DNA of 64,000 bases, taken from contig NZ_FMAT01000002.1 of the NCBI RefSeq assembly GCF_900094805.1, positions 372,001 through 436,000 of the forward strand, given 5' to 3'. Below are positions 4,107-52,700 of this stretch, piece by piece. Position 1 is the first letter of the stretch, and each line of letters opens with the position of its first letter. Under the pieces are notes generated by a model. It saw nothing but the letters and a program-made list of their open reading frames with translations, did no database searches and was not told the origin of the DNA. A program made the position numbers and the translations under genes. The DNA is from Arthrobacter sp. NIO-1057 (GTDB lineage: Bacteria > Actinomycetota > Actinomycetes > Actinomycetales > Micrococcaceae).

Positions 4107-5045
4107 CTAGGCGTTAACAGCTGCAGTAGCAGCGATTCCGTCGAGAATATCGTGTTCCGATGCAATTAGTCGCATCGGGCGATGTCCGCTAGAAGTCTCC
4201 AAGTAATGAAGGATGCGCTGAACGATTGCTGCACCGGCACGGATGACATCCGCTCGGCCAGGATGCATGAAGCCCAAAGCTGCGCGTTCATCACGAGAAT
4301 AGGAGAGCATGGCATCAGTTGCTTCTCGCATCTGATCAAAGCTCAACTGCGCACCATGAATCTTTTCAGATTCATATTTCTCCAAGCCCAGGGCCTGGGC
4401 GGTCAGCGTGGTGAAAGTTCCTGCCACCATGATTACCGCGTCAACGTCAGCGACGTCGACAGCTCCGTTCAAAGACTGCAGTGCATCGTCCATGAACGCC
4501 ACGGCTTCCGGTGAGTCCACCCCTTGCTCGTGGAACCGTTCGGTGACTCGCACGCAACCCATATCAAGGCTCTTTGCTGCCATCGGACCTGACGCATTGC
4601 CCAGAACAAACTCGGTGGAGCCTCCCCCGAGATCAATGACCAGGCTGTAGCCCGGCTGGCCAGCCCGGACCGAAGCCGCACCGTTGAAGGACAGCGATGC
4701 TTCTTCATCTCCGCTGATCACTTCCGGTGCAACACCGATGATCTTGGTGATTTCTTCGGCAAAAACATCACGGTTGGACACATCGCGAGCTGCAGATGTT
4801 GCCACAAAACGAATGGCCTGCACCTGGTGCTCATCGCACAAGGCACGGTACTCGCGAGCTGCCGCAAAGGTACGTTCCAAGGCTTCTGGTGCAAAGGCGC
4901 CCGTTGCGTCGACACCTTGGCCAAGGCGAACCACTCGCATGGTGCGCAGAACGTCAACAAGGTGGGTTCCATTCTCATCCTGCTGCACATCTGCAATCAG
5001 AAGACGAATGGAGTTCGTTCCGCAATCAATTCCGGCAACGCGCAT
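4107..5045 (-). CDS. ppx: Exopolyphosphatase, Ppx/GppA family
   Basis: Hydrolyses inorganic polyphosphate (or pppGpp) in the cytoplasm. At 312 residues it is the short two-domain actinobacterial form. The actin-like ATPase fold is marked by GIDCGTNSIRLLIAD at the N-terminus, by SGDEEASLSFNGA, and by the glycine-rich phosphate loop VIDLGGGSTEFVLG near residue 140. Its ATG overlaps the stop of the upstream DUF501 gene by one base (TAATG), so the two are translationally coupled. The block mazG-eno-ftsB-like-DUF501-ppx is conserved in actinobacteria, including mycobacteria. Confidence 0.9.
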   Translation of the reverse strand: MRVAGIDCGTNSIRLLIADVQQDENGTHLVDVLRTMRVVRLGQGVDATGAFAPEALERTFAAAREYRALCDEHQVQAIRFVATSAARDVSNRDVFAEEITKIIGVAPEVISGDEEASLSFNGAASVRAGQPGYSLVIDLGGGSTEFVLGNASGPMAAKSLDMGCVRVTERFHEQGVDSPEAVAFMDDALQSLNGAVDVADVDAVIMVAGTFTTLTAQALGLEKYESEKIHGAQLSFDQMREATDAMLSYSRDERAALGFMHPGRADVIRAGAAIVQRILHYLETSSGHRPMRLIASEHDILDGIAATAAVNA

Positions 5046-42345: not shown

Positions 42346-42494
42346 GCGTATCCTTCCGTAGGTGCCTCGTTGCCAAGGCGGGTGGTGTGCGGACCCAGGC
42401 GCGCGGCTCGCACGATTAGCTCCCCGGTGGTTACCCACCTAACGCCAGTCACGGGTTCCAGTGTAGCGAAAATTGGTGCGGGAATGAGAGTGCG

Positions 42495-49548: not shown

Positions 49549-50055
49549 GTGCAAGAAAGGGAAGTATCTAAAATGCCAGGTCGAATCGTACGAACCCGAA
49601 CCGCAGTCAGAGTCGCTGATTTTCTCGCCACCCGTGAAGGCAAAGCCCACCTGTCCAACTACGGCTGGGCGCAGGGAATGCCGATCGTCATGACCCAGCC
49701 GACCGAAACACTCAACGATGCCATGGGAATGGCATCGATCCATGGCCGCGCAGTGCTGTTGGCCATGCTCGATCCGCAGACCGAGGAACTGCACATGATG
49801 CATGTCACCGTCCCCCAAGCAGCATTGAAAGTGACCAAGGCCTGCGCTGATCGACTCACCATGGGAGAGTTCTTCGAACGCCTGTCGACCGATCTCATTG
49901 CTGAGTTCCGCGTGAAATTCTGGAAGAACACCGCCGTCGCTCTTAAGATCCCGGCCTGCCCCGCGATGCAGTCGCGAACCACCTCAGCGACTCGATACCC
50001 AATGCCAGCACACCAGCCTGAAGCCGAGCGCGTCGCGGCGGGCACTAGTAGGTAA
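49549..50055 (+). CDS. Hypothetical protein, paralogue A
   Basis: 168 residues of unknown function. The sequence has a short basic N-terminus, then KAHLSNYGWAQGMPIVMTQPTETLNDAMGMASIHGRAVLLAMLDPQ, a mixed strand region, and a tail rich in Ala and Pro. A second copy at 50927-51418 shares HLxxYG, MPIV, QPxExLxDxMGxxSIHGR and FRVxxWxxxAxxxxIP. The likely start is the ATG at 49573 (MPGRIVRTRT), because GAAAGGGAAG lies before it. No transmembrane segment or signal peptide. It may be controlled with the upstream gene, 110 bp away. Confidence 0.65.
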   Translation: MQEREVSKMPGRIVRTRTAVRVADFLATREGKAHLSNYGWAQGMPIVMTQPTETLNDAMGMASIHGRAVLLAMLDPQTEELHMMHVTVPQAALKVTKACADRLTMGEFFERLSTDLIAEFRVKFWKNTAVALKIPACPAMQSRTTSATRYPMPAHQPEAERVAAGTSR

Positions 50056-50066
50056 ACACCTTAGCT

Positions 50067-50135
50067 CCGGTTCTGGCTCATTCCCCTGGCCAGCCAGCTA
50101 ATACCCCCGTGGAACGGCTGGCGAGCCAGAACCGG
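50067..50135. repeat. Large two-part inverted repeat downstream of paralogue A
   Basis: An outer 13-bp perfect stem (CCGGTTCTGGCTC and GAGCCAGAACCGG) with an inner 7-bp stem (GCCAGCC and GGCTGGC). It begins 11 bp after the stop of the gene at 49549-50055. It is GC-rich with no U-tract: it could be a terminator or a mobile-element end. Confidence 0.5.
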
Positions 50136-50926
50136 GCCCCGTCTGGGGCTAGTTGTTGGCCTCGGTCCTCTATCCAGGTTTGCGGATACCAGGACCCGTC
50201 ACAACTCAGCGGCCAGAAACAGGTCCCGAAACCGTGTCGGCATCACCCATGAAGCTCGGACGCTCCCCCTTCGTAGCCTTCGAACCGGACTCTTGTGCCT
50301 GCCATCCCACTCTCAATGACGTCTTCTCGTGAAAGGCGTTAAGAAATGCTCACCATCAGCGCGGAAAGCTGCCTGGGACGCAGCATCCGCGTCAATCAAC
50401 AGCCGACCTTCATCGCAACGTCGGCAGTTGGGCATTTCAGGATGAATTGGAGGAGCTCAGCGAAAAATTTATCCCCTACCGAGTCGTGCTCGATAATGAC
50501 CGCCATGACGAGATCTACTGCTTCTTCGAGGGGCTCCAGGATTGCTTTCGATACCTTTCAGCACAGGAGCACCACCCGCCCGAACTGCACAGCACGCGCC
50601 AACTACTCGACAATGTTGACGCAGCCAGGCTGAACTCCGCGAACGTGACCGATAGAAACTATCAACACGAGCCTTGCTCGATTCTTCCCCGCGAAGGAAT
50701 TTCAGAACAAGCCGATCATTCTTTGGGCTATCACCCGCGAACTAGCTCTTCATTTACAGCAACACTCAACTGTCGGGTATCCATACGGGGGAATTGCGCG
50801 TACCGTCGAAAGAACACTCCGCCATAGTACCCGTGGCAAACCCGGCACCTGCACCATCCACGACAAGGCATCGCGGCAGGGCTCTAACTGGAAATACCGC
50901 AAGAGCCGCAAGAGCGGAGGCCCGCC
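50136..50926 (+). other. Long intergenic stretch with one doubtful reading frame
   Basis: No convincing gene. The plus frame from a TTG at 50447 to 50827 encodes EELSEKFIPYRVVLDNDRHDEIYCFF and a helical segment DCFRYLSAQEHHPPEL that loosely resembles the small-protein family seen at 47688 and 54623. Its N-terminus lies in another frame from an ATG at 50346 preceded by AAAGGCG. It could be a frameshifted relic. The rest has no recognisable content. Confidence 0.3.
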
Positions 50927-51418
50927 ATGTCCATCCACAGCCTAAGATCGCACACAGCTGAACACGTCAAGCATATCCTTGGCTCCCGCCAAGCCCGCAT
51001 CCATCTGGCCTCCTATGGCTGAAGGGAAGGGATGCCCATCGTCCTGGCACAACCCCACGAACGACTCGATGATGTCATGGGACTGGTCTCCATCCACGGA
51101 CGATCCGCAGTGGTCGCGATCTACGATGAACCCGACGACCACCTGAGCTTCTGGTTCGTCTCTCTGCCAAACCCGGCATTGGAAAACGTACTGGCCGAAC
51201 CACAAGGCCAGACAGTGGGGGAATTCAGCGCCCATGGCACACCTGACGGGGCGAGAACGTTCCGTGTCAGGTACTGGGCACACAGTGCCATCACTTTTGA
51301 AATCCCCTGTTACGTGCGCAGCGACCTAGAACATCGAACCTCGTGCAACACGCACCCCGATGCATTAGGCAAACCGCTACCTGAAGATTCCCTGGATGAT
51401 CCAGAACTTGCAGACTGA
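50927..51418 (+). pseudogene. Hypothetical protein, paralogue B, interrupted by a UGA codon
   Basis: Starting at ATG 50927 with GGAGG upstream, the frame reads MSIHSLRSHT to HLASYG, then TGA at 51020-51022, and continues in frame as REGMPIVLAQPHERLDDVMGLVSIHGRS to the stop at 51418. Paralogue A has Trp (TGG) at the TGA position, so this is a one-base nonsense change. A second ATG at 51032 has an SD-like AAGGGAAGGG immediately before it, so the larger 128-residue part could be expressed by reinitiation. Either a young pseudogene or a split gene. Confidence 0.65.
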
Positions 51419-51668
51419 CCTGCGGTGCGAAGAGTTAAGCTGGTCTTGTGTATAACTGAAAAATCAGCCTATTCGCACTGAAGCATCCCACGGACATCGC
51501 GGGATGCTTCAGTGTCTAATGCTGACAGCCAGCTCACCCAACGCAAGTCCACTGCCCAAAGATGTATAGAATCCATCTGAAACACTTCGCTGCTAGCAAC
51601 ACCGCCACGAGCACATGCCGAGCTGGTCAAGTTTCTGAGACACGATCTTTGATCTTTTCTAAATATTC

Positions 51669-52590
51669 TCAAGCCGCAAGGGCCAGAGAATTCCTTTCCC
51701 AATACGAGTCCAGAGCTGCTTGGGGGCTAAGCCCTCCATTAGCTGCATGCGGGCGCCTCCGGTTGTATCAAACCTCGATGAACTCCATCACCGCGGTCCG
51801 CGCTGCCACCCTGCTGGTAAATGCCCGGTGATGGTACATTTCGTTCTTGATCGTCGAGAACGTCGACTCGACCACGGAATTATCCCAGCACACCCTGGTG
51901 CGCCCCATCGACTGCCGCACGCCGTGGAAAGCGCACCACCCCTGGAACGCGTCCGAGGTGTACTGCGTTCCCCTGCCCGAGTGGAACACGCTGCCAGGCT
52001 GGACAAAACCCCGCGACACAGCCAGTTCCATCGCGTCAATGACCAGCTGAGTTTGCATTTTCTCGCCCATTGACCAGCCCACGATCTGACGCGAAGACAA
52101 ATCGATGACCGTCGCCAAGTACAGCCAGCCCTCTCCGGTGCGCAGGTAGGTGATATCGCCAACCAGCTTCGCCCCAGGCCGGCAAGAGCGGAAGTCCCGC
52201 CGTCCGAGCTTGTCGACCATATGGTTCTTGATATGCGCCGTTCGCGCTTGGTGGTCACGCACCGTCGTGGTCTTGAACGCACTGATCCGCTTGGCCTGGA
52301 TTCCCAGGTCTTTCACAATCGAGAGGACCGCGGACTTCGGGATCTCTTCCTCATGGTTGTTGCGGAGCAGGTCCACCAGGTGGCCGGCCCAGCAACCTGG
52401 TTGGATGCCTCGAACTCGGTGTGGACCAGTTCGGTGCGGCGCATGCGCAGTGCTTGGGCTGCGCTCAGCTCCTCGCCGGGGTTCACCCACCGGTAGTACG
52501 AGGCGCGGGAAACGCTGAGTTTCTGGCACATCCACTTCACCGGGTACCGGCCGGTATGGGCTTTGATGAAGGGGTCTGCCGGCAGCATCA
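51669..52590 (-). pseudogene. IS3-family transposase OrfB, inactivated
   Basis: The N-terminal part (minus frame from about 52590) reads GRYPVKWMCQKLSVSRASYYRW. After a frameshift near 52385 the protein continues in another frame with KSAVLSIVKDLGIQAKRISAFK and the DDE core. The first Asp is in GDITYLRTGEGWLYLATVID. The second catalytic region reads FHSGRGTQYTS instead of HSDRGxQYTS, so the catalytic Asp is Gly. The Glu is in WDNSVVESTFSTIKNE. A TGA then interrupts IEV-YNRRRPHAANGG, with the true end at 51669. No OrfA is found. A possible terminal repeat begins at 51624. Dead by several changes. Confidence 0.8.
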
Positions 52591-52600
52591 TCGCGCCATA

Positions 52601-52700
52601 ATGGCAAAGCAAAGTTCACCGAATCCAAGAGCTCATAGACCAAGTCAGCGACGCACTCTACGACTCCCGCCTACTGGAGAACGACCATCAGAGGCCCTGT
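52601..52700 (+). pseudogene. 3' fragment of a small-protein family gene, next to the IS3 remnant
   Basis: From 52604 the plus frame reads WQSKVHRIQELIDQVSDALYDSR, matching WQSKVHAIQEMIDQVNDSLYGSQ at the end of the gene at 54623-54862 (17 of 23 identical by eye). The N-terminal half is missing and the sequence upstream belongs to the IS3 remnant, so an insertion or deletion destroyed it. The frame then runs on without a stop through antisense DNA. Confidence 0.7.

Follow-up and report, generated by a model that had tools for sequence, protein, structure and literature searches.

An in-frame UGA shared at the tryptophan site of a genus-restricted protein family and its probable readthrough

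Genes A and B and their family

The window, i.e., the whole 64,000-nucleotide stretch of Arthrobacter sp. NIO-1057 analysed here (contig NZ_FMAT01000002.1), carries two paralogous genes on the + strand, which we call A and B. The upstream start of B is ATG 50927, and its frame is interrupted by a TGA at codon 32. The features are listed below in the order of their coordinates.

49573..50055, + strand: gene A, 160 residues, with TGG (Trp) at the site where B has TGA
50775..50816, + strand: conserved leader of B, with GGGTAT at 50775-50780 and CGCGTACnGTCnAAA...ACA at 50797-50816
50911..50920, + strand: Shine-Dalgarno-like AGAGCGGAGG 5' of the upstream ATG of B, identical in the four copies
50927..51418, + strand: gene B, complete frame, with codon 32 as an internal TGA and 163 codons ahead of the final stop
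50927..51019, + strand: codons 1-31 of B, 5' of the TGA (omega 0.061 for codons 2-31)
51020..51022, + strand: in-frame TGA at the family's Trp site, in four of four B copies
51023..51418, + strand: B 3' of the TGA (omega 0.121 over codons 33-135, with a nearly neutral tail)
51032..51034, + strand: candidate restart ATG, ACG in one of the four B copies
51476..51515, + strand: terminator-like inverted repeat 3' of B, CACTGAAGCATCCC...GGGATGCTTCAGTG, read by eye, its first arm largely conserved in the four copies

Downstream of the stop, B shares 36% identity with A over 110 amino acids (BLASTP, E=8e-25), in agreement with the sequence-only reading, which had taken the two for a paralogous pair. 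That reading had let A begin at GTG 49549, which is in frame with A; the placement of the pair stands, but the start of A is most likely ATG 49573, judging from the many relatives that begin at MPGR, i.e., at this ATG. A block consisting of a hypothetical gene, MarR, a second hypothetical gene, A and B is present in the window, at a G. soli locus on a 664.5-kb contig and on a plasmid of Arthrobacter sp. YC-RL1. Four further loci (L066, L076, L077 and L078) keep the block with A; tblastn at 1e-5 detected no B copy there and only other members of the family. In the window, an rve-domain transposase gene lies just downstream of B (51768-52643, minus strand).

Neither A nor B matched a profile of Pfam, NCBIfam, PHROG or PADLOC at E 1, consistent with the family having gone unrecognised in the sequence-only reading. 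The best PDB sequence match had an E of 0.15 and was to a designed protein, and Foldseek gave no match at E 0.001. The top eight rows from VIA-align were tRNA-splicing endonucleases (best Z 8.3, 109 aligned, 3.4 A, 10% identity), and Z values of this kind are common for models that have no clear match. We considered the tRNA-splicing endonuclease fold as a guide to function and set it aside as too weak to use, with a Z of up to 8.3.

Members of the A/B family were found at 88 places in 17 of the 18 genomes of the genus (Glutamicibacter), five of them in the genome of the window. The sample of the taxonomic family comprised 295 genomes, and among the 277 outside the genus a single one yielded a match, a weak one (E 7.4e-4) that contains a TAG; the phage search gave no match to the family, and the viral contigs scanned held no relative of it. 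As far as these sequence searches reach, the family is genus-restricted and multi-copy. At the position corresponding to codon 32 of B, the 88 places have Trp (81), TGA (3) or Gly (1), and the site is missing from the remaining three. A searchable motif located the site in 80 places (77 TGG, 3 TGA) and the other eight were read by eye (4 Trp, 1 Gly, 3 without the site). With TGA taken as Trp, column 32 did not vary across 73 aligned rows, a selection made without the broken and short members and the one with Gly. In-frame TGAs at non-Trp sites were seen in two other members, L067 (G009:C5:113444-113860, two TGAs) and L068 (G010:C20:306783-307073, one TGA), and from their sequences both look like decaying copies.

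The shared TGA and selection on its two sides

B is most closely related to three loci, two in G. soli and one on the 112.8-kb plasmid of YC-RL1. One G. soli locus is on the 664.5-kb contig, and the other is on a 64.6-kb contig, which has 2.5 times the coverage according to its title and is perhaps a plasmid. All four B copies have TGA at codon 32, in frame, and none shows a frame change between the two halves. The Trp-to-UGA change proposed by the sequence-only reading was thus confirmed, the TGA at 51020-51022 standing opposite the Trp of A; when the three other copies were compared, all three had TGA and none had TGG. No TGG version of B was found in the 295 genomes, in the genome contigs scanned or on plasmids. 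The two other Trp codons of B are TGG in every copy.

In a tree of 86 rows (the 88 places minus four short ones, plus two YC-RL1 rows), the four B copies formed a single clade with support of 100/98 and a long stem. The simplest reading of this tree is that the TGA arose once, ahead of the divergence of the four copies. The codons flanking the stop vary among the copies (GGC or GGT before it; AGG or AGA and GGG or GGA after it), and recent copying of the stop from one B copy to another is disfavoured because these codons differ. Pairwise comparison of the copies (six pairs) gave 3 to 5 mismatches within a 30-base stretch around the stop and 7 to 12 within 60 bases. Three of seven comparable purine-ending codons of B are likewise unchanged, and four copies are too few to prove that the TGA has been kept beyond chance. 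Codon 147 of the YC-RL1 copy (L116 8001-8480) is a second in-frame TGA; it falls in the tail, where constraint is weak, and similar sequence goes on after it. The PLSDB gene table, which is incomplete and omits pseudogenes, has no entry under B on this plasmid; genes like B, with an in-frame stop, are easily missed by annotation.

Both sides of the stop bear the mark of coding-type selection. Upstream of it, variable sites in codons 2-31 of B fell at codon positions 1/2/3 in the numbers 6/3/21 (p=5e-7), and two 60-base blocks of the B leader had no such pattern. In a codon model, these 30 codons gave an omega of 0.061, with a 2dlnL of 50.0 against omega=1, and the 3.84 limit falls between 0.02 and 0.15. 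Downstream of it, codons 33-135 (102 codons) gave 0.121, with a 2dlnL of 131 against omega=1. The tail of B past codon 135 (27 codons) was near neutral with an omega of 0.74. Selection of this type on each side of a shared in-frame stop is what a readthrough gene should display, with values of 0.061 and 0.121 in the present case.

Readings of the stop codon

We consider that B probably makes a protein of about 163 residues by low-level readthrough of the UGA. Since the stop and the coding character on each side of it have both been retained in four diverged copies, the stop is probably read through and the gene not broken. B would then be a working gene with a UGA fixed in its mRNA where the family has a near-invariant Trp codon. 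Initiation would take place at ATG 50927 behind the strong ribosome-binding site, and most ribosomes would terminate at codon 32. A minority would decode the UGA as Trp with the ordinary tRNA-Trp(CCA), aided by the leaky UGA-A context, and would go on to produce the complete chain of about 163 residues. In this way the stop would keep the level of B low and dependent on translational fidelity. Readthrough, the inserted residue and any regulatory use are what we best infer from the comparison of sequences.

The base following the UGA is A in all four B copies, which are related and so do not amount to four independent observations. In E. coli, UGA followed by A is particularly prone to misreading by tRNA-Trp, according to an excerpt of PMC5289835. 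The leaky UGA read by tRNA-Trp (Engelberg-Kulka 1981, as cited in the same excerpt) resembles the case of B in that the context is UGA-A and Trp fits the site; it differs in being a property of E. coli UGA codons, whereas in B the UGA is fixed inside a gene and its readthrough is our proposal. In 29 long frames of the window, chosen by a composition rule, AGA and AGG together account for 6.7% of the 777 Arg codons, and the AGR codon after the stop is only suggestive because AGR is present elsewhere in B too. A stimulatory RNA structure after the TGA was not supported, with one of 22 predicted pairs changed on both sides.

The structure of read-through B was modelled with a pLDDT of 80.5 and a pTM of 0.71. 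In the model, the part before Trp 32 forms two helices that lead to Trp 32 and the first strand, and block means were 88 to 94 from residue 11 on. This predicted fold bears on a different account of the same locus, in which translation would end at the UGA and begin again at ATG 51032, nine bases further along. A 31-residue peptide and a chain of 128 residues would result, either working apart or coming together as a split domain. The sequence-only reading had pointed to this ATG behind a purine-rich run and to a 128-residue open reading frame starting there, and both are readily seen by direct reading. The ATG lies behind such a run in three of the four B copies, termination-reinitiation between close genes is well described in the excerpts of PMC6728339, and two translated chains would likewise fit the selection on both parts. 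However, a start codon does not follow the stop closely in every copy: three have ATG, and one, the second G. soli copy, has ACG and yet a core that remains under constraint (omega 0.111, 2dlnL 8.51). Thr at this position also occurs in some Trp-bearing relatives. The Met at 51032 is the usual Met of the family's GMP motif, the purine run before it encodes R-E-G in all four copies, and the SD-like run of the G. soli chromosomal copy nearly abuts the ATG. In relatives, moreover, the two parts make up one continuous domain. The new ribosome binding site and 128-residue product proposed by the sequence-only reading are weakened by these observations. Restart is the main rival account, possible for the three copies with ATG, and we regard it as rather unlikely; one continuous chain is favoured because of the GMP Met, the R-E-G-coding run, the constrained ACG copy and the predicted fold.

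That B lost its function once the Trp codon became a stop appears improbable. A pseudogene would account for the in-frame stop, and other members of the family do decay (with two TGAs in G009:C5:113444 and one in G010:C20:306783). The four diverged copies nevertheless share the stop, with an omega of 0.06 before it and 0.12 after it, and no copy has suffered a frame change between the halves. When branches were tested one by one over the whole core, omega=1 was rejected on the window branch (2dlnL 7.25), the YC-RL1 branch (5.69) and both G. soli branches (59.15 and 8.51). For the upstream part alone it was rejected on the window branch (10.94) and the G. soli chromosomal branch (13.83) and not on the YC-RL1 branch (2.62) or the second G. 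soli branch (0.32). For the downstream part alone it was rejected on both G. soli branches (46.12 and 7.89) and not on the YC-RL1 branch (3.50) or the window branch (1.52), the last of which is compatible with loss of function. Relaxed selection with an omega near 1 was not what we observed, although some single-branch tests on the parts were not significant. The pseudogene reading fails for the clade because the whole-core branches and both sides of the stop are under constraint. The young pseudogene that the sequence-only reading had offered as an alternative does not agree with a TGA common to four diverged copies and with purifying selection on both sides of it; the sequences leave some room for a recent relaxation in the window's own strain.

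Dedicated recoding of the UGA, whether through insertion of selenocysteine, through a special tRNA or through some factor as yet unknown, seems improbable. The UGA is fixed at one codon, and there is room for an unknown factor; against this, tRNA-Sec was over the cut-off in none of three genome entries and SelB in neither of two genomes. The 62 tRNA places typed in the window's genome include a single tRNA-Trp, with anticodon CCA, and a UCA anticodon is absent from all 62. This tRNA-Trp looks ordinary, with a five-pair anticodon stem and G at position 24 (read by eye). RF2 was over the cut-off in both genomes searched, the window's and that of G. soli. The YC-RL1 plasmid, covered over 107,395 of its 112,763 bases, has one tRNA, for Asp. 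On these results we rejected several candidates: selenocysteine, with no tRNA-Sec or SelB over the cut-off and with Trp, not Cys, in the relatives; a suppressor tRNA, with none among the 62 places of the window's genome; and genome-wide reading of UGA as Trp, given no UCA tRNA, an ordinary tRNA-Trp and the presence of RF2. Since no special machinery was detected and RF2 is present, decoding of B would rest on ordinary leakiness, hence with low output. A sequencing or assembly error is very unlikely, because the identical codon is found in the three other B copies, from two other sources.

Going further than readthrough itself, the UGA may be an expression gate, so that full-length B would appear only upon misreading and its output would report translational fidelity (RF2 activity, Trp-tRNA supply, stress); in Glutamicibacter and relatives, the gene under this gate may have passed between chromosomes and plasmids. 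We offer this idea tentatively.

Known in-frame stops and the leader of B

The coat gene of phage Q-beta also has a UGA whose readthrough gives a longer protein, as we propose for B. There, the stop precedes a C-terminal extension of a complete protein, whereas the stop of B lies inside a domain, at codon 32. Bacterial selenoproteins likewise have an in-frame UGA; unlike them, B has a site that is Trp and not Cys in relatives, and no tRNA-Sec or SelB was over the cut-off. UGA is also read as Trp where it has been reassigned, which includes cases of a tRNA-Trp with a 4-bp anticodon stem, according to the excerpt of PMC13092985. Unlike such reassignment as described there, the proposed reading of UGA as Trp in B concerns one codon only, the other Trp codons being TGG, in a genome with RF2 and a five-pair stem in tRNA-Trp(CCA).

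In-frame stops are widespread in bacteria and mostly short-lived (Belinky et al. 2021, PMC7918605). In the portion of that large survey considered here, 71% of pairs had no mismatch in a 30-base window and 4% had more than three, the example shown had a dN/dS of 0.73, and readthrough and lowered expression were suggested. B resembles the stops described there in that orthologues share the in-frame stop and show signs of purifying selection. It differs from the short-lived ones in its 3-5 mismatches in 30 bases and its omega of 0.06-0.12, and we set its UGA apart as long-lived because pairs in the portion cited mostly have no mismatch. From these comparisons, B would be a variant of the known in-frame stops, long-lived and internal, with UGA at a Trp site. 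Persisting across species, on chromosome and plasmid and in a strongly selected domain, such a stop is an exception to the short persistence reported in that portion of PMC7918605. We found no description of the UGA of B in the open-licence papers searched, nor one of readthrough in Glutamicibacter. B is well suited to testing UGA readthrough in a gene of a bacterial chromosome.

About 150 bases 5' of the B start, GGGTAT is present in all four copies. We take it to resemble the -10 box of stress sigma factors, and a SigB-type promoter at this position was considered. The predicted RNA fold of the B leader had seven of 39 pairs changed on both sides, many pairs broken and a covariation term against the fold. 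Structured RNA was rejected as a candidate both after the TGA and in the leader, the compensatory changes being unconvincing (1/22 and 7/39).

Paralogues of the MNTPEL type (e.g., L069, L070, L071, L079 and L080) have a strongly conserved element, ACTCCACGATGATCACCGAGCGCC..GCGAAACCCGGGG, in 12 leaders, about 140-90 bases before the start, and part of it recurs in the B leaders. It had no Rfam match at that place in these five loci, its predicted fold had almost no compensatory changes, and by its conservation it is perhaps an undescribed regulatory element. In L079, a match to the cspA thermoregulator (4318-4625, minus strand) stayed below threshold (33.3 bits, gathering score 78, E 6e-5). Elsewhere in the window, a ZMP/ZTP riboswitch match at 42386-42462 (minus strand) scored 38.9 against a gathering score of 39, and its counterpart in L064 (7437-7513) passes the threshold with 43.5. 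The gene after the match in the window is presumably folD, as recognised by eye.
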